The position numbers were made by a program, and so were the translations under genes. Shown piece by piece: positions 2,734 to 20,914 of a stretch of DNA of 20,915 nucleotides; position 1 is the first letter of the stretch; the number at the start of each line of letters is the position of its first letter. The DNA lies in the IMG/VR virus record IMGVR_UViG_3300030451_001853, positions 1-20,915 of that record. One strand, given 5' to 3'. The notes below the pieces were generated by a model. The model had not been told where the DNA came from, did no database searches, and worked only from the letters and a program-made list of their open reading frames with translations. The stretch comes from a virus.

Positions 2734-5700
2734 TTAAAAGTTCATAACAGAGGGTATCACTCGCTCCTGTAGCATTTCTAAGTATTCCTCTACAGACATT
2801 TTTTGACCGCGATAATTTATGAAGTAGCCTTCAGTAAACTCTAACTTTAACAAGTCTCGTTTTGCTCGCGCTCTATATTTTAGAATGATGTCTTGTAGTC
2901 GCTCTAAGCCCTTGTTGGACTTCTGCGAAACGTTTGCATCGATAGCACCAATGCGGTTGACGATCTCATTCCTCGGATCGCCGAAAGTGATTTCGCCATC
3001 CTTGTATAAATCGTCCCATCGTTCTTTTTCTATCTCTTCGACCAATGCCTCTATAAGATTATTACCTCTGAACTCAACTTCGTATGCGACGTGATCTGCA
3101 TATCGCTGATAGAGCGTCTCGCCCGTCTCTTCGTTTACAAACTTTTTGAGCTCAAGGTTACCAACTCTTGTAGGTAATTTAGTAATAAAGCCCCCACGTT
3201 TGGCATCGTCATTTATGATTTCGTCAAGCTCTGGTTCGTATGGGCTGGGCATTCTTTGCTTACCATAACGGAAGACAATTGTAGAGGCGTTTTGTTCTGG
3301 CCTTTGACTTGGACGTCCTAGCTTGTCTCGGAAGACGTTTGGAGTTTCCGTAGACAGCGCGTTTGCAAATATATTACTGAACGTATCTCCTTGAGACTTA
3401 TCGTAATACACAAGATCGTCTTGCCTGTTGATGCCTCGTATTTGAGCAGGAATAGGAACAAGACTCGCTGCGAATTGTCCTAATGTTTGCTTTCTAATTG
3501 CTTCAGCTGTATCTGGGTCATCCGACCTCGGCAGCAAGATATCGATGAGTTGTCTATAGCCTGTTGTAAACGGCATGTCAGTAAGTGCTGATCTAGCCGA
3601 CCTTCCGATAGTAGCCAATAATGTTTGGTTGTCTGTGAGCGCGCCTTGTTCTGCTAAAGCGGAATAGGCTTGCATATCAGCAGTTATCGATGCGATAAGC
3701 CGAAGGGGTTCAAACAGACGATAGTCACGCATGTATGTGCCGTCGTCATCTTCACCAATAAGCTTGTAGGCTTGGAACTTAGATTCACGCTTTGCGTCAT
3801 TAGTTAGGTGAGCACCCGATCCTGTTATCTGACCGCTCTCTGCCATCTTCCAGAACAAGATGTATAAGCCAGCAGCTAGCATGGTTTTGCCTACATCATT
3901 AAGATACTGTTCGGTTCTTAGTTCTTCGGTTACTCGTAGCTCTTCTCTCTTTGCATCTCTACTTGCTTCTAGCCTTTTGATTTGCATCTCTGAATTGGAC
4001 TCGTCTTTGAGCAGTCGATCAATCTTTGTAAGATCAGCTTCAAGGTTTCCTATCTTTGCATTGTATTTACCAAAAATAGAACTCACACGACCTTCGCCTT
4101 GTCTGGTAGCTAACGCTGCTAGACCGAAAGATTTCGCGAGTGGTTCTGCTACTGGACTGAGGGCAAAGTCTACCGTTCTTGCAGTCGCGCGTATTGGCGT
4201 GCTAATGATTGCAAAGAACAAACGAAAGAGATTACTAAATACAACACCACGTCCTGTGTGTTTGTTTATTAGATTTACCAGACGTTCAGCTTCGGTTAGT
4301 TGTATGTCGCCATCGTATAGGTCGCGACGTTTGAACAGATTGCCTCTTACTTCGTTGGCAATATCTCTGTATTCACTCTGTTCATAGTTGAACACTTTCA
4401 TGCCGTTCTTTTCCATGAAAGCGGCATCCATGTAAGCTTTGATGAACTCTTGTTGGTTTGTAGCCCCTTCTCGTATCGCTCTACGCAACCCTTCGGCACG
4501 TAGCTTGCCCATGAGCATTGCACGCTCAAAGGGGACGTCGATTGTTCCTAGCATAGTCTGACCGAGAAAGATCAACTCTGCGGCTGCTTGTGCTGGCGGT
4601 GATCCTGACACTTTTCGCATGAAGCCTCCTAAAGCTCCTTCAGCATCGGGAGTTACTTGTGCAGCTCTTCTTTGAAGAGTGTTTCCTCCTTGCATTCGAC
4701 GTGAGCCTCCGAACGGAGTTCCTTCAGCAGCCTCATCGTATCTGTTTGAGTCCTTGTAAAAGAGAGAAGACTGGCCGCGTGTTCTTACTGTTCGAGCCAT
4801 CCCCTTGTATGTATCCAAACGGAACATAGTCATCACTGTGTCGTAGAACGCAAGAATAGATGAGTTTGCAAACTTTAATCTTTCAATAATGGTCGCATCT
4901 TTAAGGCGTGCTGCTTTAATGATGTTCTTTGGTATGTCACGAATTGGATCAGACAGCGTATACCACATGGCACTTGGAATGCCCGACGTAGCGGTTGTCA
5001 TTTGATCCAAGAAGGCCGCTGTTCTAAAGGTTAGATAACCGTTGATTAGATTACCAACAGCCCCTTGCGTATACTTTGAAGTGTTGACGATCTTATCAAT
5101 CTCAAATGCAAGCTCGTTAGCTTGTAGGTCGCGTAGTTGTTTCTTGAGGAGTGCTTCCCGTTCTTTGAGTTTATTTAGATAACTCTCTTGCTTTTCTGGG
5201 TTGAATAACGCTAGCTCCTTTTTCCTCTTTGGGTGCATCCCAATCTGTTGGTTGATTGCAGATACGTCTTCGCCAGCAACTAAGGCTGATAGCAAGGCGT
5301 TACGTTCTTCTAGCTCTGCTATCTTTGCTACGTCCTTTCCAGCTCCCTTGTAGAAAGCTATACGTGCTTCTAGGTCTTTTTCTTCTTCACTTTTTGCGCG
5401 TCTTGGACGCCCTGTCGCGCCACCCTCTATAACTTCATCATTCAAGAAAGCATCAAACTCACTGCGTAGACGCTTTAATTCTTTTTCAAGACGGCGCACG
5501 GCACGCTGTGAAGCTGTTAGTTTATCTTTACGAGTTTTGCGAGGCTTCTTTGGTTTTGGCTGTTCGGCCTCTGGTGTCGGTTCGGCCTCTGGTGTCGGTT
5601 CGGCCTCTGGTGTCGGCGTTGGTTCTTCCGTAGCAGGAGCATCTGGAGTATCAACGTCTATATCGACTTCTTCTTCCTCTGGGAATAGCTTTCTGTATAG

Positions 5701-7575
5701 GTCTTCAATGCCCTCAAAGTTTTTATCGTTCTTAAATATTTGTAACTTTGTTTTGAGTCTTTGAAAGTTTCTAAGCTTCTCTTGACGCTCTAGAGTTATT
5801 ATCTCTTTGAAGTTCTCAATCCCTCTGTCATCTCTACGTGTCTGAAGGACGTTAGCATCAATGTAGTCTAACTCGTAGAACTCTTCAGCGAGCTTTGCGT
5901 AGTCATCTAGATCAGCAAGTAAGTTATCTAATGCTTCAATGTCATCGTAGTTTGCAACGAGACGATCAAGGTTGTCTTCAAACTCTGCGGTAGCTCCTTT
6001 AAATGCGTCGCTGACTTTGTTTGTGATCGTGATGGCCACACCGTTTTGGCGATTCTCTTTGAGGGAGCGCACTTCATCAATAATTCCTTGAAAGGTATTT
6101 CTTCGGCCGCCTTCTTCTCCACCAGTAGGTGTAGGGGGCGGTGGGTCTTGTGGAGGAGGTGGGTCAGCGGGTGTCGGCTCTGGCGTCGCTGGGGCTTCTT
6201 GTTCTGCTCTTCTTTGAAGCTCTTCGATAAGCTCTTTCCTTGTGGCAGTGGTATCTCGAAAATCATTAGCATTAGCACCAAATGGGTTGTCTCCTAGCTC
6301 TTCACCCGAAAAAGATAACTGCTTCATGCCATCGGCGTCAGTGACGTGAAAGATACGACCCGCAGATGCTGTGTCACTCGACCCGATGAATACCTGCTTT
6401 CCGTTAATTGTTAATTCGTAAACAGGATAGGTGTCTCCTGCTGCTTTAACTTTCTTAGGCTTAAAATTATTTTCTGGTTGTGGAGCAGGGGTAGGTTCTG
6501 CCTCGCCCTCATCTCGGCGGCGTCTTGCTTCAATGACTTCGTCAACACGATTGCGTTGCTTTTCGTCCATAGACGCTTGTTGCTCAGAGGCTTGCTCGTA
6601 TCCGTCTAGCTCCTCAGTCACAGAGTCATGGACTGCTTCAATGTCGCGTAGTTCTTTGCGCTTCTGTCTGAGGGTTCTAGTTATTGCAGTTCGTGCTCTT
6701 CGATTGTCTTTTACCTTTCCAAGACGATCAACAAGTTTGTCTATGTCAGTTTTGAGATCACCCGTCATGTTGACTTTGGATAAAGCTACAGCTTCTCTCC
6801 ATCTTCCAAACAACACACCGCTGCGGGTAAGTCCTTCGTCAAGAGCTGTAAGACCCCCGCCGCCTATGACTGAACCGATGCCTGTTCCCATTCCTAACTG
6901 AGCGGCTCTATCTGTCCACGTTAAGTCTTTGTTGAACTCGCTGTCAGAAGCAAACAACGCATTGAATGCTTGCTCAATAGATACGGACACAGCACCAACA
7001 GTTGCACCTTGCACTGCAAAGCTTCCTGCTTTGAGCTTGATGCCCTTAGTGGCCATCTCTGGATCAAAGTATTTCTTGAGGAACTTAATCCGTTTGCCTT
7101 GTCGGACAACTGGGTTTAAAAGAAGACCTGTTGCAAGTATTTCACCGCTGTTGATGCCTTCTTGTATCCCAACGCTTTGGCGATACTTTTGTGATAAATA
7201 GTTACCTGCAAGCGCAAAAGCACCTTCTGTAGCTACAGCCGATAAGGCAGCTGGGACTGTTCCAACACCAGTTGATCCTGCGGCTACTTGACCAGCTTGA
7301 ACTACACGTCTAGCGTTCCTAAAGTTCTTTAGGTATTTCATCGCCTTTGTGGTGGTGTATATACCGCCCATAGAGACGCCAATCTCAATACCCATTGCTT
7401 TAGCGGTCTCGTCCCAAGCACTTTCGCCGTAGCCTTGCTCTTTAGCTATCTCGCCTAACAGAGAAAATGTTTCTCCGTTCATATCGTCATAACTGACATC
7501 GGGCAGAACTGAAGATGCAGGAGAAGATTGGATTCCTATAGAATCCTGCATTGCTTTAATTTGTTCTGGGGTCAT
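2734..7575 (-). CDS. Large internal virion/ejection protein (T7 gp16 position), 1613 aa
   Basis: By position (last internal protein before the fibre) and size this is the gp16 counterpart, which in T7 is ejected to form the channel across the cell envelope. T7 gp16 has 1318 residues and an N-terminal lytic transglycosylase domain; I see no such domain or ESGG-type catalytic motif here. Seen: a helical, Gly-rich hydrophobic N-terminus (about 45-250), a coiled coil (about 275-350), three Pro/Glu-rich linkers (about 360-372, 460-490, 638-670) that isolate a small domain at about 373-458, a long charged coil (about 690-800), hydrophobic helices near 840-885, 1115-1145 and 1230-1245, and a C-terminal part with SGQITGSGAHL, RLFEPLRLIAS, SLVPIPAQIRG and PNVFRDKLGRP that resembles a large polyvalent protein-associated domain (LPD38-like, from memory). 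It starts 1 nt before the end of the intergenic junction with the gp15-type gene. Confidence 0.8.
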   Translation of the reverse strand: MTPEQIKAMQDSIGIQSSPASSVLPDVSYDDMNGETFSLLGEIAKEQGYGESAWDETAKAMGIEIGVSMGGIYTTTKAMKYLKNFRNARRVVQAGQVAAGSTGVGTVPAALSAVATEGAFALAGNYLSQKYRQSVGIQEGINSGEILATGLLLNPVVRQGKRIKFLKKYFDPEMATKGIKLKAGSFAVQGATVGAVSVSIEQAFNALFASDSEFNKDLTWTDRAAQLGMGTGIGSVIGGGGLTALDEGLTRSGVLFGRWREAVALSKVNMTGDLKTDIDKLVDRLGKVKDNRRARTAITRTLRQKRKELRDIEAVHDSVTEELDGYEQASEQQASMDEKQRNRVDEVIEARRRRDEGEAEPTPAPQPENNFKPKKVKAAGDTYPVYELTINGKQVFIGSSDTASAGRIFHVTDADGMKQLSFSGEELGDNPFGANANDFRDTTATRKELIEELQRRAEQEAPATPEPTPADPPPPQDPPPPTPTGGEEGGRRNTFQGIIDEVRSLKENRQNGVAITITNKVSDAFKGATAEFEDNLDRLVANYDDIEALDNLLADLDDYAKLAEEFYELDYIDANVLQTRRDDRGIENFKEIITLERQEKLRNFQRLKTKLQIFKNDKNFEGIEDLYRKLFPEEEEVDIDVDTPDAPATEEPTPTPEAEPTPEAEPTPEAEQPKPKKPRKTRKDKLTASQRAVRRLEKELKRLRSEFDAFLNDEVIEGGATGRPRRAKSEEEKDLEARIAFYKGAGKDVAKIAELEERNALLSALVAGEDVSAINQQIGMHPKRKKELALFNPEKQESYLNKLKEREALLKKQLRDLQANELAFEIDKIVNTSKYTQGAVGNLINGYLTFRTAAFLDQMTTATSGIPSAMWYTLSDPIRDIPKNIIKAARLKDATIIERLKFANSSILAFYDTVMTMFRLDTYKGMARTVRTRGQSSLFYKDSNRYDEAAEGTPFGGSRRMQGGNTLQRRAAQVTPDAEGALGGFMRKVSGSPPAQAAAELIFLGQTMLGTIDVPFERAMLMGKLRAEGLRRAIREGATNQQEFIKAYMDAAFMEKNGMKVFNYEQSEYRDIANEVRGNLFKRRDLYDGDIQLTEAERLVNLINKHTGRGVVFSNLFRLFFAIISTPIRATARTVDFALSPVAEPLAKSFGLAALATRQGEGRVSSIFGKYNAKIGNLEADLTKIDRLLKDESNSEMQIKRLEASRDAKREELRVTEELRTEQYLNDVGKTMLAAGLYILFWKMAESGQITGSGAHLTNDAKRESKFQAYKLIGEDDDGTYMRDYRLFEPLRLIASITADMQAYSALAEQGALTDNQTLLATIGRSARSALTDMPFTTGYRQLIDILLPRSDDPDTAEAIRKQTLGQFAASLVPIPAQIRGINRQDDLVYYDKSQGDTFSNIFANALSTETPNVFRDKLGRPSQRPEQNASTIVFRYGKQRMPSPYEPELDEIINDDAKRGGFITKLPTRVGNLELKKFVNEETGETLYQRYADHVAYEVEFRGNNLIEALVEEIEKERWDDLYKDGEITFGDPRNEIVNRIGAIDANVSQKSNKGLERLQDIILKYRARAKRDLLKLEFTEGYFINYRGQKMSVEEYLEMLQERVIPSVMNF
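5563..5616 (-). repeat. Three perfect tandem 18-bp repeats in the gp16-type gene
   Basis: The unit ttcggcctctggtgtcgg (plus strand) occurs three times without mismatch at 5563-5580, 5581-5598 and 5599-5616. On the coding strand it encodes a repeated six-residue Pro-Thr-Pro-Glu-Ala-Glu linker. Perfect DNA identity, not just protein similarity, suggests recent slippage expansion, so the copy number may vary between relatives. Confidence 0.9.
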
Positions 7576-14415: not shown

Positions 14416-15561
14416 TTAGGCAGTAACCTTGACAGCTACAGCGCACTCTGGGCGAAGGACACCATGACCCATTGCATAACGGGCAACCATGAGTGTTCCT
14501 TGACGCTCAATTTGGTATTCGGATTGAACCGAAAGATCAAGAAGCTTGACCGTTCCGATTGCTTCACGAGTTCCAGCGAGGATGCCGTATTGGGCAGACG
14601 CACCAGAACCGCTCTTCAGTTTGCTGAAGTCAGTGTTGTATCCAACACCGTTAGTGGTAGAACCAGCAACGTTGTCGTCGTGGACGTCGTTACGTGTTCC
14701 AGCAGTTGTGCCAGATGCAACAGCACCATCGTCGTTGTCAGCGTTGGTTTGGTCGTTAGAACCACCAGTGCCAGCAGCAGAGATGTTGCCTTCGTCAGCG
14801 ATTGACTGGAAGTTGTTCGACTTGAAGAGGCTGATGCCAGCAACTTGTGGAACTACACCCGTAGCAATCGATCCAACACCACCCGCGTCGCGGTTGATAG
14901 CTGGAGAGACTACAGCAGAGCTGTCAGCTGTGATTAACTGATAGTAAGTGCGAGGCGCAAGGATCGCGAAGCGTCCATCCTCTGGGGCGTTATTTTCGTC
15001 CAGAGTTGTAGCTACGGAATACAGAGCGTCGATTACTTCAGCAGCACTGTCAAGACCACCAGAACTAGCGTCAATGACAGTTCCAGCAGCGGTTTGACCC
15101 GATATATTTGCATCGGCATTTGCAGCAGCGAAGAGAGTCTTCAGAGTTGCAATGTCGAAGCGTTTAGCAAGTGCCTTGCCTAACTCAGACGAGTATACAC
15201 TTCGGATGTCGAAGTGGTTTTGTAGCTCGTCAAATTCAGCAACAAATGTTGAAGCGATAAGCATGTCGTCGATGCTTATGATCTTCTCTGTTTGTTGGAA
15301 CTCTGTTAGGGCTGTAGCAGCATTTGCATACAGTGATTGACCAGCAGCGTGATAACGAGCACTAGCAATTCCCGAAACTGGGAAGCTAGATTGCTTGCCG
15401 TTAGAGATTGTGCGAACGGTATGAAGGTCTTTCATAACCGTATTAGTCTCAAACGCAGTAAGAATCTCGCCACTGAACAATTTTAAGAACAGTTCTGTTT
15501 TGTCAGAACCGCCCAGTTTTGCACCCACGCGGGATGCTGGATTGGCAGTTGTAAGAGCCAT
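14416..15561 (-). CDS. Major capsid protein (T7 gp10A type), 381 aa
   Basis: HK97-fold shell protein. Seen: KTELFLKLFSGEILTAFE near residue 21, VRTISNGKQSSFPVSG near 48, a QTEKIISIDDMLIAS motif near 90, HFDIRSVYSSELGKALA near 115, and a C-terminal block with EAIGTVKLLDLSVQSEYQIE and ARYAMGHGVLRPE; each aligns by eye with T7 gp10A. It is longer than T7 gp10A (about 345) mainly because of a polar Asn/Asp/Gly/Thr-rich insertion at about 257-307. A strong AAAGGA site precedes the ATG and a terminator follows, the arrangement of a highly expressed gene. No room exists for a gp10B-like frameshift extension. Confidence 0.97.
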   Translation of the reverse strand: MALTTANPASRVGAKLGGSDKTELFLKLFSGEILTAFETNTVMKDLHTVRTISNGKQSSFPVSGIASARYHAAGQSLYANAATALTEFQQTEKIISIDDMLIASTFVAEFDELQNHFDIRSVYSSELGKALAKRFDIATLKTLFAAANADANISGQTAAGTVIDASSGGLDSAAEVIDALYSVATTLDENNAPEDGRFAILAPRTYYQLITADSSAVVSPAINRDAGGVGSIATGVVPQVAGISLFKSNNFQSIADEGNISAAGTGGSNDQTNADNDDGAVASGTTAGTRNDVHDDNVAGSTTNGVGYNTDFSKLKSGSGASAQYGILAGTREAIGTVKLLDLSVQSEYQIERQGTLMVARYAMGHGVLRPECAVAVKVTA

Positions 15562-15670: not shown

Positions 15671-15790
15671 TTATTTCTTCTTCTTCTTGCGAATACGAAG
15701 AGATTTGAGGTCAGCTCCTGTGATCTTGTCGCGAGGCGCGGCAACAGCAGCTAACTTCTTTTGTTTGGAAGAGTATTTATGTTTTGGCAT
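15671..15790 (-). CDS. Very small basic phage protein (39 aa, MPKHKYS family)
   Basis: Thirty-nine residues beginning MPKHKYSSKQKKLAAVAAPR and ending in a run of lysines (RIRKKKKK). The N-terminal pattern M-P-K-H-K-Y-S followed by A-P-R-x-K-I-T-G-A-D is one I recall from small uncharacterised proteins near the capsid gene of marine phages. It starts 1 nt after the stop of the 83-aa protein and ends just before the capsid leader. High positive charge suggests nucleic-acid or acidic-surface binding; the actual role is unknown. Confidence 0.75.
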   Translation of the reverse strand: MPKHKYSSKQKKLAAVAAPRDKITGADLKSLRIRKKKKK

Positions 15791-15791
15791 T

Positions 15792-16043
15792 TTACTTTTT
15801 GATTTTAAGGCTAACTCTAGCTTTCTTTGTATTTGCTACAAATTGTTTCCCCTTTGATCCTTCTCGCTTTTTCTTTCGAGCAGTCTTTGCGCGTTCAGCT
15901 TTGGATAAGCTTTTAGCTTTAGCCATCGGAAGGCAACGGTCGGGATTCTTTTTGTTTTTAGAAGTTCCGCAAGCTCCCTTGATCGAACCGTCTGTTCCGA
16001 TTCTGACCCAGTTTTGACGTCTCCACTTTGCGAGCTCACCCAT
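15792..16043 (-). CDS. Small Lys/Arg-rich protein (83 aa)
   Basis: Unknown function. Seen: an N-terminal part MGELAKWRRQNWVRIGTDG with tryptophans, a CGTSKNKKNPDRCLPMAKA segment with two cysteines, then a strongly basic tail rich in KAERAKTARKKKREG-type sequence. The W-V-I-G then G-x-C-G then C-x-P-x-A-K-A pattern recalls small uncharacterised phage proteins (DUF5872-like, from memory, not checked). The ATG overlaps the stop of the upstream 52-aa gene (TAATG). Possible DNA- or RNA-binding or virion-associated protein; no catalytic motif seen. Confidence 0.78.
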   Translation of the reverse strand: MGELAKWRRQNWVRIGTDGSIKGACGTSKNKKNPDRCLPMAKAKSLSKAERAKTARKKKREGSKGKQFVANTKKARVSLKIKK

Positions 16044-16201
16044 TACTTTTTCTTTCTAATCTTCAACCCTTTGCGCTTGGAGCCTTTCGCATAGTTAGGG
16101 TCTTTACAGTATTTGCTTGCTGCCATGTTTGCGTAAGCAGATGGATACTTATCGAAGGTGCGCTTTGCCCAAGCAATCCCTTTTGGACATATCTTGGCCA
16201 T
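16043..16201 (-). CDS. Small basic Cys-containing protein (52 aa, MAKICPKG family)
   Basis: Fifty-two residues: MAKICPKGIAWAKRTFDKYP, then SAYANMAASKYCKDPNYAKG and a basic end KGLKIRKKK. Two cysteines (C5, C32) and aromatic/Pro spacing suggest a small folded unit with a charged tail. I recall near-identical small proteins in marine podovirus genomes, always unannotated. A good AAAGGTAGG purine stretch precedes the ATG. Stop and next start overlap as TAATG, tying it to the 83-aa gene. Function unknown. Confidence 0.8.
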   Translation of the reverse strand: MAKICPKGIAWAKRTFDKYPSAYANMAASKYCKDPNYAKGSKRKGLKIRKKK

Positions 16202-16202
16202 A

Positions 16203-16361
16203 CTATTTACCTACCTTTCTCATAGCTAAGGCGTGCGCTTTGCTAAACGACATGCCTTTTTTCATTTCTTCCTCCATGAGCTTCATGTGCTTAGAAGAAT
16301 GATGCTTCTTGTGTCGCTTCATAGAGAGTTGTTGTCGTTTGGTAAGAGCGGCTTTTTTCAT
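16203..16361 (-). CDS. Small basic His/Lys-rich helical protein (52 aa)
   Basis: Fifty-two residues starting MKKAALTKRQQLSMKRHKKH, followed by HSSKHMKLMEEEMKKGMSFS and KAHALAMRKVGK. The pattern Q-x-x-x-x-K-H-K-x-H-H-(T/S)-x-K-H-M and K-G-M-S-F-x-K-A-H is characteristic of a small uncharacterised family I know from many phage structural modules. It would form two amphipathic helices. It lies one base before the next gene of the basic cluster. Function unknown; the repeated His may bind metal. Confidence 0.82.
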   Translation of the reverse strand: MKKAALTKRQQLSMKRHKKHHSSKHMKLMEEEMKKGMSFSKAHALAMRKVGK

Positions 16362-16371
16362 GCCTAAAGGC

Positions 16372-16461
16372 TTAGTAGCCCATTTTCTTTTTCTTTTTCT
16401 TACCTATAGCAAGTTGCTTACGTTTCATTTTCATACATTTATCGCATCCACAGTTTTTCAT
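16372..16461 (-). CDS. Micro-protein with CxCxxC motif and lysine tail (29 aa)
   Basis: Only 29 residues: MKNCGCDKCMKMKRKQLAIG then six lysines and MGY. Cysteines at 4, 6 and 9 form a C-x-C-x-x-C cluster; with three cysteines in one chain a metal site would need a partner or a dimer. The ATG lies 2 nt after the stop of the 80-aa gene, with GGAAG about 10 nt upstream. Too short for standard callers. Support is position in an unbroken chain of small basic genes and the non-random composition; function unknown. Confidence 0.6.
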   Translation of the reverse strand: MKNCGCDKCMKMKRKQLAIGKKKKKKMGY

Positions 16462-16463
16462 AA

Positions 16464-16706
16464 TTAACACTTCCATCTGCGGAGGGCTAAAGCTTTACGA
16501 GTAGGAGACCCGTCTGGTTTCTTCATTGCGCCTTTTACGCCACGCATACGAGCACAGAACGAGCGTTTACGCGCTCCCCCTTGAGGCTGTGGGGCTTTGA
16601 GATTAGAGCCTGTTTTTCGATTGTAATATTCACGACCCTTCTTGGTGAGACCGCCTTTCGACGATTTGTGTTCTTTACGAAGGCTTACGCCTTTACGCTT
16701 ACTCAT
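16464..16706 (-). CDS. Small basic phage protein (80 aa, DUF6321-like)
   Basis: Eighty residues. Seen: GGLTKKGREYYNRKTGSNLK, APQPQGGARKRSFCARMRGV, then KPDGSPTRKALALRRWKC at the end. This pattern (Y-N-R-x-T-G-S-N-L-K-x-P, S-F-C-A-R-M, R-K-A-L-x-L-R-x-W-x-C) is a distinctive and widespread phage/prophage family that I recall as DUF6321; function unknown. Two conserved cysteines and strong basicity are consistent with a structured nucleic-acid-binding or virion protein. The start overlaps the end of the lipoprotein gene by 8 nt. Confidence 0.88.
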   Translation of the reverse strand: MSKRKGVSLRKEHKSSKGGLTKKGREYYNRKTGSNLKAPQPQGGARKRSFCARMRGVKGAMKKPDGSPTRKALALRRWKC

Positions 16707-16893
16707 TCTCCAAGTCGTTTATATAGTGAAGCATGTCTCCGATCAGCTCGCGCTGTTCAACATTAAAGTCTAGGCTGTTCAGTCTTTCGAGGAAGGTTGG
16801 CACTTTGCTTTGACGAACCGTTACGCACCCAGTCATCAATATCATTAGTATGCTTATTGCGGCGACGGCGAAATATTTCTTTCTCGTATGCAT
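16699..16893 (-). CDS. Small lipoprotein, candidate outer-membrane spanin (Rz1-like), 64 aa
   Basis: Signal peptide with basic n-region MHTRKKYF, hydrophobic core AVAAISILMILMTG and a lipobox ending in T-G-C (cleavage before C22), leaving a mature lipoprotein of about 43 residues with acidic helix ending DMLHYINDLENE. Most of the gene overlaps the upstream 66-aa membrane protein in another frame, the hallmark of embedded Rz/Rz1 pairs. The mature part is not proline-rich as in lambda Rz1. Ribosome binding is uncertain: AAGGA abuts the ATG and GGGAGG lies further up. The lipoprotein signal is good; the spanin role is inference. Confidence 0.7.
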   Translation of the reverse strand: MHTRKKYFAVAAISILMILMTGCVTVRQSKVPTFLERLNSLDFNVEQRELIGDMLHYINDLENE

Positions 16894-16963
16894 TCCTTAT
16901 GTCAAAGAAAAGCCTCCCCAGTTTTGGGAAGGCTATTAGAAGCTGAACGATTACCGTTATCAC
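16763..16963 (-). CDS. Small membrane protein, candidate inner-membrane spanin partner (66 aa)
   Basis: GTG-started, 66 residues. Seen: N-terminal hydrophobic/amphipathic segment ITVIVQLLIAFPKLGRLFF, then FDIRNAYEKEIFRRRRNKH and a polar basic tail with DDWVRNGS. AAGGA lies 3 nt before the GTG, and the GTG overlaps the stop of the holin-like gene (GTGA). The embedded lipoprotein frame suggests an i-spanin/o-spanin pair, but lambda- or T7-type i-spanins are longer (about 140-150 aa), so this would be a minimal version. The alternative is an unrelated membrane-associated protein. Confidence 0.62.
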   Translation of the reverse strand: MITVIVQLLIAFPKLGRLFFDIRNAYEKEIFRRRRNKHTNDIDDWVRNGSSKQSANLPRKTEQPRL

Positions 16964-17148
16964 TTGTCCTTGGCTTTGCCTACATTTAATGCTAGCCAGT
17001 CAACGATCTTGTAGGCTTTGGCAACCCATGTGTCGTCGGTTGGTGTAGGTGTTAATGCTGCTATTGAAGAAGCAGCTGCAACAAGGCTAGTTAATATAGC
17101 AATTAGCGAGCTTGAGTTTTCGATTAGGTAGTTGATCATGGTATTCAT
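16960..17148 (-). CDS. Holin-like small membrane protein (62 aa)
   Basis: Sixty-two residues. Seen: a hydrophobic helix at about residues 14-32 (LIAILTSLVAAASSIAALT), a TPTPTDD turn, then VAKAYKIVDWLALNVGKAKDK, an amphipathic tail. I recall the pattern N-x-T-P-T-P-x-D-D followed by K-x-Y-K-I-x-D-x-x-A-L-N-x-G-K-A-K from many small phage proteins in marine and enterobacterial phages, sometimes called holin-like. AAGGA is found about 9-10 nt upstream. Followed by an overlapping membrane protein and lipoprotein, it looks like the first gene of a lysis cassette placed between scaffold and capsid. Confidence 0.72.
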   Translation of the reverse strand: MNTMINYLIENSSSLIAILTSLVAAASSIAALTPTPTDDTWVAKAYKIVDWLALNVGKAKDK

Positions 17149-17164
17149 ATAAGATTATTCCTTA

Positions 17165-17950
17165 TTAAAAGACGTTTGATGCAGCGAGTCTCTTCTCGAC
17201 TGTATCGCGGAAAGCTGGGTCTTTTGAGTAACGTGGGTCACTCATAGCCTCAGTGACTTGAGCGGCTGACATGAAGGGCTTTACGCCGTCTCCACTAGTC
17301 GAGCCTTGTGTGAGATTAGGCGGGCTACCACCGCCGCTGAGAAACCTTGCATACATGCCTTGAACGGCCATCTTTGCTTGCTCTACAGAGCCGCTGGTAA
17401 CTATCTCGTCATAGGCATCAATGTCAGAATCACTCAGATTCTCCTGCGCCCACTCAGTCATAGCTTCGTAGTTCTCACGGCCTCCAACGGCTTGCTGGAT
17501 GTCCAGAGCTTGTGACGTCACCATAGCTTCTTGTCCTGCTATGTAGGCATCTACGAAGGAACTCGGTATGCCAGCCTTCTCTAGCTCCACATACATCTTG
17601 TCAGTTAGTTCGCCGCTTTCGGCAAACTCTTCTTGAGCCTTGACGATAGCGTCGTTGATAGCAGGAGCTGGTTCTTCTTCGCCTTTCGACTTGGAACGTT
17701 CAGCGTTTCTAGACTGCTGCTTTTCTAGCTCCTTGTAAGCTTTTGCTAGGTCTTCTGGAGACTTAAATTTTTCATCTAACCATTCTGGTCGATCACCCTC
17801 AGAAGACTCTTCAGTGGCCTCCTGCTCTACTTGTTCAGCTTCTGCTGAAGCAGCCTTGGCTATTTCTTCTTCCAAAGCTGCGTTCTTTTCGGCCGCTTCT
17901 TGTTCGGCGGCTGTTGGTTCGTTTATGTTTATTTGCTGTAGTTCAGCCAT
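17165..17950 (-). CDS. Scaffolding/assembly protein (T7 gp9 type), 261 aa
   Basis: Internal scaffold for procapsid assembly, released before DNA packaging. Seen: Glu/Ala-rich acidic N-terminus (about 1-52), the family landmark RPEWLDEKFKSPEDLAKAY at about 53-72, a helical middle with low complexity, and the C-terminal DPRYSKDPAFRDTVEKRLAA typical of the capsid-binding helix. Position between portal and capsid and the 1-nt gap to the portal gene agree. T7 gp9 has about 307 residues. Secure call. Confidence 0.93.
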   Translation of the reverse strand: MAELQQININEPTAAEQEAAEKNAALEEEIAKAASAEAEQVEQEATEESSEGDRPEWLDEKFKSPEDLAKAYKELEKQQSRNAERSKSKGEEEPAPAINDAIVKAQEEFAESGELTDKMYVELEKAGIPSSFVDAYIAGQEAMVTSQALDIQQAVGGRENYEAMTEWAQENLSDSDIDAYDEIVTSGSVEQAKMAVQGMYARFLSGGGSPPNLTQGSTSGDGVKPFMSAAQVTEAMSDPRYSKDPAFRDTVEKRLAASNVF

Positions 17951-19493: not shown

Positions 19494-19721
19494 TTATTCT
19501 TCGGGTTCTGGGAATACTACGGACTCTACGGCTGTAGCTTGTTCAAGGTCGTCGAGGTCATACTCAGTAACATCTAAAGCCCACTGACCATCAGCCGTAG
19601 CGACTGGCTTAGTCAACCAGCGAGTTCCCATACCACAAGTCCAGTAGGAGAAGTTGTTGTCTTTGCCTTCTTCATCGGCTCGCTCTAGGGCGGCTTCTTC
19701 GGTTGGGAATATAAGATACAT
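19494..19721 (-). CDS. Small acidic protein upstream of portal (75 aa), unknown function
   Basis: Seventy-five residues, strongly acidic (many Glu/Asp, ending VESVVFPEPEE). Starts MYLIFPTEEAALERADEEGK; the M-Y-L-I-F-x-T-E-E-A-A pattern recalls a small uncharacterised family found just before the portal gene in marine T7-like phages. No membrane segment or known domain. The ATG overlaps the stop of the LamG-like protein (TAATG), and the portal starts 3 nt later. Function unknown; translational spacing suggests co-expression with the portal. Confidence 0.8.
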   Translation of the reverse strand: MYLIFPTEEAALERADEEGKDNNFSYWTCGMGTRWLTKPVATADGQWALDVTEYDLDDLEQATAVESVVFPEPEE

Positions 19722-20914
19722 TAGTAGACGTCGTATTGATTGTTAATGTTAGCTTCGATGGCTGGACGGTTGGCTGTTTGATTGGAATCATAGATAATTA
19801 TTTCTTTGAGTGAACCATCAATTTTACTACCGTGTCCACCAATCGCTGATGCTTTAAAAGCAGTTGAATTTGAAAAAGTGCTAGACGCTGTTCCATTTAT
19901 AAAAAATGCACCCGTGTCGGATGCTCTTATAAATGAAAGCAAAGTATCTTGATCAGCAGATATAGTAGTGTTTAATGCAGGCTGGTTTGCTGATCCTGAT
20001 GAAGCCCTAAAAAATCCAGCTGTAGCTGATCCTTTTCCAAAACCTGATGAATCAGCACCAGCTGCTGTAGACAATATTCTATCCTGTCCCGCTGCATCAT
20101 CAAAGTTTGCAACTGAGAAAATAGAAAAATCGCTTTCATTTAGTGCAGTAAAATCTAACTGGTCATCTGACCCATCAAAGTCTAGTTCATTTAACAAAGT
20201 TCCAGCATTAACAATCTTAGGCTGCTTGGAAGCAGTTGCTTGCACAGCATTAGTGCCATTACCTGACTGGTCATACCAAGTCTCTACAAAGCCGTCCACT
20301 GTGTTGTCATACGCAGGGATACCAGAGATGCTGTAGTGTTCACCGATGTTAGCTTCAATGGCTGTGCGGTTGTCTGTTTGGTCGGAGTTGTAAACTATAA
20401 ACTCCTGAATAGTCCCATCAAAATTGTCAGTGAATGCAGTTCCAAATCGCTGTCCAATTTTTAGTTCGGCACTTGCACTAACTCCACTAAAAGATGCACT
20501 TGTAGTGGTAAAGGAACCTCCATTGAGTCCTACTGATATATCAGTAGTGTGCAGATTCGTAGTAAGGTTTTTTTGTGTTGCCGCTGATACTCCCGCCTGT
20601 GCGCCATTGATTTCTGTACGAATTAAATTTGAGGTATATTGTGCAAAAAATCTATCAGTTTGCGAAGAACCAAAAGCAAACAATCCGTTAGAACTTAACG
20701 AATCTGGATTATTAACGCAAAATATTGTTTTTGAAGAGCTGGCAAATCCAGTTCCTGCACTTAATACATCATCACTACCATCAAATTCTAATTCTGGAAC
20801 TCCTGATGAATCTACAACTAAGGAACCATCACTTACAATCTGAGGTTGGTTATCATCAGTACTTTGAGTTGCGTGATTACCTGTTGCTGTATCTCCTGCT
20901 TGGTTGGTTACACT
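19721..20914 (-). CDS. LamG/concanavalin-like repeat protein, partial at right edge
   Basis: Open frame of at least 397 residues; the start lies outside the window. It contains two tandem beta-sandwich modules: the motif LEFDGSDD / LDFDGSDD recurs, as do Q-P-Q/K-I-V strands before it and a closing strand IQEFIVYNSDQTDNRTAIEA versus LKEIIIYDSNQTANRPAIEA. WYDQSGNGTNA links the modules. This is typical of LamG/laminin-G-like carbohydrate-binding domains seen in phage and marine bacterial surface proteins. Position at the head of the structural module suggests a virion-surface or receptor-binding protein; a virion location is inference. A TTG at 20683 is not the start because the frame remains open and conserved upstream. 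Confidence 0.82.
   Translation of the reverse strand, partial: SVTNQAGDTATGNHATQSTDDNQPQIVSDGSLVVDSSGVPELEFDGSDDVLSAGTGFASSSKTIFCVNNPDSLSSNGLFAFGSSQTDRFFAQYTSNLIRTEINGAQAGVSAATQKNLTTNLHTTDISVGLNGGSFTTTSASFSGVSASAELKIGQRFGTAFTDNFDGTIQEFIVYNSDQTDNRTAIEANIGEHYSISGIPAYDNTVDGFVETWYDQSGNGTNAVQATASKQPKIVNAGTLLNELDFDGSDDQLDFTALNESDFSIFSVANFDDAAGQDRILSTAAGADSSGFGKGSATAGFFRASSGSANQPALNTTISADQDTLLSFIRASDTGAFFINGTASSTFSNSTAFKASAIGGHGSKIDGSLKEIIIYDSNQTANRPAIEANINNQYDVY
19746..19821 (-). repeat. Copy 1 of a 600-nt-spaced internal repeat in the LamG-like gene
   Basis: About 76 nt resembling 20346-20421 at exactly 600 nt distance, without gaps (roughly three quarters identical by eye). It encodes the closing E-I-I-I-Y-x-S-x-Q-T strand of the second LamG-like module and marks an internal duplication of about 200 codons. 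Confidence 0.75.
20346..20421 (-). repeat. Copy 2 of the 600-nt-spaced internal repeat in the LamG-like gene
   Basis: Partner of 19746-19821, encoding the E-F-I-V-Y-x-S-x-Q-T strand of the first visible LamG-like module. Both share the near-identical stretch gatgttagcttc / aatgttagcttc and ccatcaa end. Confidence 0.75.

Follow-up and report, generated by a model that had tools for sequence, protein, structure and literature searches.

Tailed phages are generally thought to neutralise their packed DNA with ions and polyamines, and the proteins that they package along with it, such as the internal proteins of phage T4 and the T7-type ejection proteins, are small or head-internal. A further point of comparison is ascovirus P64, a large cationic virion protein of two-cysteine modules that condenses viral DNA (PMC6163548). 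The six small basic proteins described here, p1 to p6, would resemble P64 by functional analogy as modular cationic virion proteins, with no homology claimed, and they differ from it in that P64 has Arg/Ser-rich repeats and a vs2C-ad motif, neither of which is found in the block (no Pfam match to vs2C-ad, PF08793, and no Arg/Ser repeats in the six sequences). We likewise saw no sequence similarity to the T4 internal or T7 ejection proteins, and the DNA under study carries its own separate internal virion protein genes besides the block.

The window, i.e. the whole stretch of DNA that was analysed, is a virus record 20915 bases long. Its late genes lie on the minus strand in a T7-like order: portal, scaffold, lysis-like genes, the basic block, capsid, tail tube A and B, internal virion proteins and terminase. 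On that strand the block occupies 16706 to 15671, with the lysis-like genes on one side and the capsid gene on the other, and its frames measure, in transcription order, 80, 29, 52, 52, 83 and 39 codons:

17165 to 17950, minus strand: scaffold (head assembly) gene, phrog_1052 (E 1e-57), net charge -30
16464 to 16706, minus strand: p1, 80 aa, DUF6321 domain protein, net charge +23, Cys51 and Cys80
16372 to 16461, minus strand: p2, 29 aa, three Cys followed by a Lys run
16203 to 16361, minus strand: p3, 52 aa, His/Lys-rich, without Cys
16043 to 16201, minus strand: p4, 52 aa, YPSAYAN module with two Cys
15792 to 16043, minus strand: p5, 83 aa, W...WVRIGTDG...C...C module
15671 to 15790, minus strand: p6, 39 aa, K-x-Q-x-K-L-A-x-V-A...KITxADL motif and Lys tail
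14416 to 15561, minus strand: major capsid protein gene, phrog_267 (E 6e-66), directly downstream of the block

All six consecutive frames proposed in an earlier note on this DNA are present at this place, with gaps or overlaps of 0-10 bases; gaps of 2, 10 and 1 bases separate p1 from p2, p2 from p3 and p3 from p4, while p4 and p5 overlap by 1 base (TAATG) and 1 base lies between p5 and p6. If started at an ATG 15 bases upstream (16476), p2 would have 34 aa. The note was also right that T7 has no counterpart at this site, where just 93 bases separate its genes 9 and 10A. The scaffold-capsid interval of T7-like phages is an insertion hotspot (L003, L211, L212, L213), measuring 93 bases in T7 and 262 in Syn5 and holding hliP and psbA in P-SSP7 and hli, DUF6321 and psbA in S-TIP37. 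Sigma-70-like promoter sites are fewer than in shuffled sequence and were uninformative. A terminator-like hairpin of 10 pairs (16911-16934, minus strand) lies ahead of the block, within a 66-codon spanin-like frame.

Taken together, its charge ranking, its intact frames in relatives and its low pooled dN/dS show that the block is more than chance. The proteins are strongly Lys/Arg-rich as claimed, with pI values of 10.2-11.6 and net charges of +23, +11, +13, +14, +22 and +13 (p1 to p6; about +96 in sum), and they account for six of the seven highest net-charge densities among the 222 ORFs of at least 25 aa found in six frames of the window. Cysteine counts are 2, 3, 0, 2, 2 and 0, so that the paired cysteines described earlier hold for p1, p4 and p5; the lysine-run tails are found in p2, p4 and p6. 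Four contigs whose capsid protein is about 94% identical (L008-L011) keep all six frames intact, and the pooled dN/dS of the block is 0.034 against L011 and 0.073 against L008 (simple NG86 method on short genes, with p2 and p6 taken alone offering too few substitutions to judge). The frames are therefore kept in close relatives and selection on them is purifying, contrary to the frame loss or dN/dS near 1 that the earlier note had named as grounds for abandoning the idea. The dS of p1 is about 1.3 in near relatives and at most 0.54 for the other block genes, which suggests that p1 has been exchanged by recombination. In contigs with 61-62% capsid identity, p1, p4 and p5 retain 90-91%, 90-92% and 81-84% identity and the scaffold about 50%; p1, p4 and p5 thus evolve more slowly than the capsid protein, at a distance where most synonymous sites have reached saturation.

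The block is a portable, co-inherited set of genes. It precedes the capsid gene in the window and in L008-L011, but in L016, L019 and L020 p1, p3, p4 and p5 lie directly after the capsid gene, and L024, L025 and L033 keep p1, p4 and p5 there. Several relatives keep p1 alone after the capsid gene, and the two p1-only loci that we inspected (L023, L028) carry a further small basic protein, similar to one of S-CBP4; P-SCSP1k also has p1 just after the capsid gene. L149 and L176 have p4, p5, p6, p3 and p1 in an order unlike that of the window, together with a short peptide, with a Lys run and Cys, that may be the counterpart of p2. The set of L176 lies between a terminase large subunit and a portal of another family, both of them identified. 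Among 242 loci, sampled with p1, p5 and capsid queries so that proportions reflect linkage and not abundance, p4 directly precedes p5 in 106 of the 113 loci with p4, usually with a 1-base overlap, and the reverse order p5-p4 was not seen. Two close relatives have an extra basic protein of 52-54 aa that was not seen in the window (L011:2044-2208, L008:1961-2119); in one of them it lies upstream of p1, and in the other it separates p1 from p2.

At the family level p1 is a full member of DUF6321 (Pfam PF19846; E 3.8e-24, 85.5 bits against a cut-off of 28.5), with its SFCAR...WKC core and paired Cys. The best-known members of this family are C-terminal domains of large cyanomyovirus proteins, whereas p1 stands alone. 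DUF6321 occurs in 531 GenBank phage records, mostly of cyanophages and also of pelagiphages, Methylophilales phages and Vibrio phages; it carries no assigned function, and no paper in the literature searched names it. The AlphaFold2 model of p1 (pLDDT 87, pTM 0.64) has three helices (22-32, 45-55, 70-77), and its fold found no real match in the PDB, where the sole hit was meaningless (E 7.8). A bacterial origin was considered and rejected: 55 loci in genome collections are mostly on short MAG contigs, which we provisionally take as phage or contamination. A widespread small basic module, GLYANIHAKRKRI...GSGEKMRKPG, adjoins the DUF6321 genes of cyano- and pelagiphages (L002:4209-4400, L005:3705-3854, L038:4743-4919).

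For p4 (phrog_27331, E 3.7e-24) and p5 (phrog_23735, E 3.5e-25) the window proteins themselves gave no Pfam match to DUF5872 at E up to 1. Remote p4-type genes match PF19197 (DUF5872) at positions 1-47 and p5-type genes at positions 55-115, every match exceeding the cut-off of 27.5 bits, so that the p4-p5 pair is best described, at the family level and by way of these remote relatives, as a split DUF5872. The two halves come in the same order as the genes, and the difference is that in the window they are separate coupled genes; a single Pfam domain would then be spread over a coupled gene pair. The sole paper naming DUF5872 in the literature searched lists it in the algal giant virus CpV-BQ1 (PMC12085832). 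Our structure model of p5 is moderate (pLDDT 76). Of the remaining members, p2 was seen in close relatives alone (intact in L008-L011) and matched no family in Pfam and PHROG searches, and p3 belongs to phrog_31838 (E 1.1e-8) and is conserved in L020 and P-SCSP2. The profile approach found p3 relatives, whereas tblastn against GenBank phages gave no match. About 20 contigs have p6 near other modules, and its homologs in P-SCSP2 and L190 have DANKDGKISREDF, an EF-hand-like loop that is degenerate in the window p6.

The cysteines of these modules are kept or lost together. In p1, Cys51 and Cys80 are both present in 62 and both absent in 6 of 68 sequences, and the two Cys of p5 (65 sequences) and of p4 (38 sequences, two of them with shifted Cys positions) are similarly all-or-none. 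This suggests that the two Cys of each protein act as a pair, although some of the signal may reflect few independent losses, and in p1, p4 and p5 the pair probably holds the small fold together. We considered a zinc ribbon and rejected it; since two Cys per module make an incomplete zinc site, they more likely form a disulphide or contribute to a shared metal site. Variants of p1 with SFAAR...WGF have both Cys replaced.

In other phages the same modules occur fused in single proteins. Using HMMs built solely from single-gene members, with fused proteins excluded and scores tested against 1600 shuffles, we found p5-p4-p1 in one 398 aa protein of L239 (E 2e-4, 5e-11 and 2e-26) and in S-SCSM1 ORF29 (p5, p4 and p1 at 16.8, 17.2 and 75.6 bits, the best of the 1600 shuffles reaching 7.0 bits), with partial sets in proteins of S-P4, Syn19 and ACG-2014f. 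Searching BFVD by structure, with the models of p1 and p5 as queries, recovers the same fused proteins. Similar to the block, the T4-like cyanophage structural protein T4-GC 119 (S-P4, Syn19) has p4 and p1 modules, joined in one polypeptide, to which S-SCSM1 ORF29 adds p5; they differ in their length (387-529 aa), further Cys modules, acidic linkers and location in the terminase/neck region. An 868 aa protein (L193:1604-4210) joins DUF6321, NUDIX and DUF2213, and its gene sits between portal/head-morphogenesis genes and a capsid-like gene.

The fused proteins also connect the families to virions. S-SCSM1 ORF29 is labelled ‘virion protein’ in its record, and such labels appear to follow the virion proteome of that phage, which comprises 45 proteins (PMC9602691). 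S-CREM2 ORF137 (108049-109521) has a C-terminal DUF6321 at 412-490 (65 bits) and gave four unique peptides in CsCl-purified virions (PMC10665884 Table 3). Virion association is therefore supported through orthologous fusion proteins that mass spectrometry detected in virions of two cyanophages, with the limits that these are fused myovirus proteins and that CsCl preparations can carry contaminants; the separate podovirus proteins would be virion components by extension. They give just 0-3 tryptic peptides of 7-30 residues each, so that standard virion proteomics would easily miss them. Since the genes of the fused proteins adjoin terminase and neck genes, these could be neck or tail proteins. 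Next to the S-CREM2 DUF6321 protein, the Lys-rich 237 aa ORF136 (L269:502-1215) gave eight peptides in virions (PMC10665884).

The earlier note had proposed a joint role for the six proteins, and this is well supported by the near-obligate p4-p5 linkage, the movement of the set between head gene clusters and the p5-p4-p1 fusion. Its suggestion of a capsid-interior cement is weakened as regards the icosahedral shell: the P-SCSP1u shell shows only capsid protein (PMC10575957), and its close relative P-SCSP1k carries p1, so that ordered shell cement would be unlikely here too. DNA condensation, which it also named, is plausible. We suggest, with a probability of about 0.5, that p1 to p6 are small cationic proteins of the virion with a function like that of ascovirus P64. 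Made late, along with the products of the head genes, they would pass into the head as it assembles and bind non-specifically to the DNA packaged there; once bound they would lower repulsion or organise the DNA near the shell and portal, and they may be ejected with it. The cationic character, the head-gene setting, the detection in virions and the joining to a protein with a putative role in head assembly all fit head-entering DNA-binding proteins. Against this, PDB searches gave no match by sequence, nor by fold for p1, and no DNA-binding fold was recognised; full neutralisation of a genome would also require very many copies. Simple charge neutralisation would not require motifs such as YPSAYAN and SFCAR to be conserved so strongly; this suggests specific contacts and leaves room for contacts with portal, terminase or scaffold.

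Such contacts are the whole function in the strongest competing explanation, in which the proteins are head assembly or neck accessories acting on the acidic scaffold, capsid, portal or terminase while the particle is assembled, with any DNA binding incidental. We consider this an appreciable minority possibility. The charges of the scaffold (-30) and capsid protein (-14) are in keeping with it, as are the clustering of the genes with scaffold, capsid, portal, TerS and TerL, the joining of DUF6321 to NUDIX and DUF2213 at a head gene position in L193, and the highly specific sequence motifs. However, head clusters whose portals belong to different families carry the set, and this portability speaks against tightly co-evolved contacts; moreover, the P-SCSP1u shell has no ordered extra protein (PMC10575957).

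Somewhat less probable still is a role in host takeover, in which the proteins, either carried in the virion or produced inside the cell, would bind host RNA, ribosomes or DNA. Highly basic and conserved proteins would suit this role, and cyanophage virions have been proposed to bring regulatory proteins into the host (PMC10665884), but the genes lie in the late head cluster and not in an early region, and the module set recurs in phages of different hosts. PADLOC had no match for the block proteins and NCBIfam none near its cut-off, which also speaks against takeover, and the known unrelated function that the earlier note saw as a possible refutation was found for none of the families. Lysis-associated cationic peptides extending the upstream holin/spanin cassette are highly improbable, for although in the window the block has a holin-like gene and a nested spanin-like pair as neighbours, it lies away from these lysis genes in L020, L025 and L176, inspection by eye shows neither a signal peptide nor a membrane segment, and the fused forms are virion proteins.

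More tentatively than the head-entering, DNA-binding role itself, the families may belong to a modular virion system for organising DNA, whose small cationic modules, most of them with two cysteines (DUF6321, the DUF5872 halves and others), come from a shared pool and are deployed as operons of separate genes in podoviruses and siphovirus-type phages and as single fused proteins in T4-like cyanophages, with DUF5872 also in algal giant viruses. As far as our searches reach the unit is new, its families being known but uncharacterised. Were these proposals true, DUF6321, with its 531 sequenced phages, and DUF5872 would gain testable roles, and the picture of neutralisation by ions and polyamines would have to be revised to include dedicated basic virion proteins of very abundant marine phages.

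Some neighbouring genes deserve mention. The holin-like gene (16960-17148, minus strand) is followed by a nested pair resembling inner and outer spanins (16763-16963 and 16699-16893, minus strand), the second of which carries a lipobox-like MTGC; in L008 another, membrane-like protein of 134 aa lies between scaffold and p1. A 1613 aa protein (2734-7575, minus strand) without a PHROG match occupies the place of the T7 internal core protein, and upstream of the portal region an open frame (19721-20914, minus strand) contains repeated segments that may resemble concanavalin-like lectin domains.
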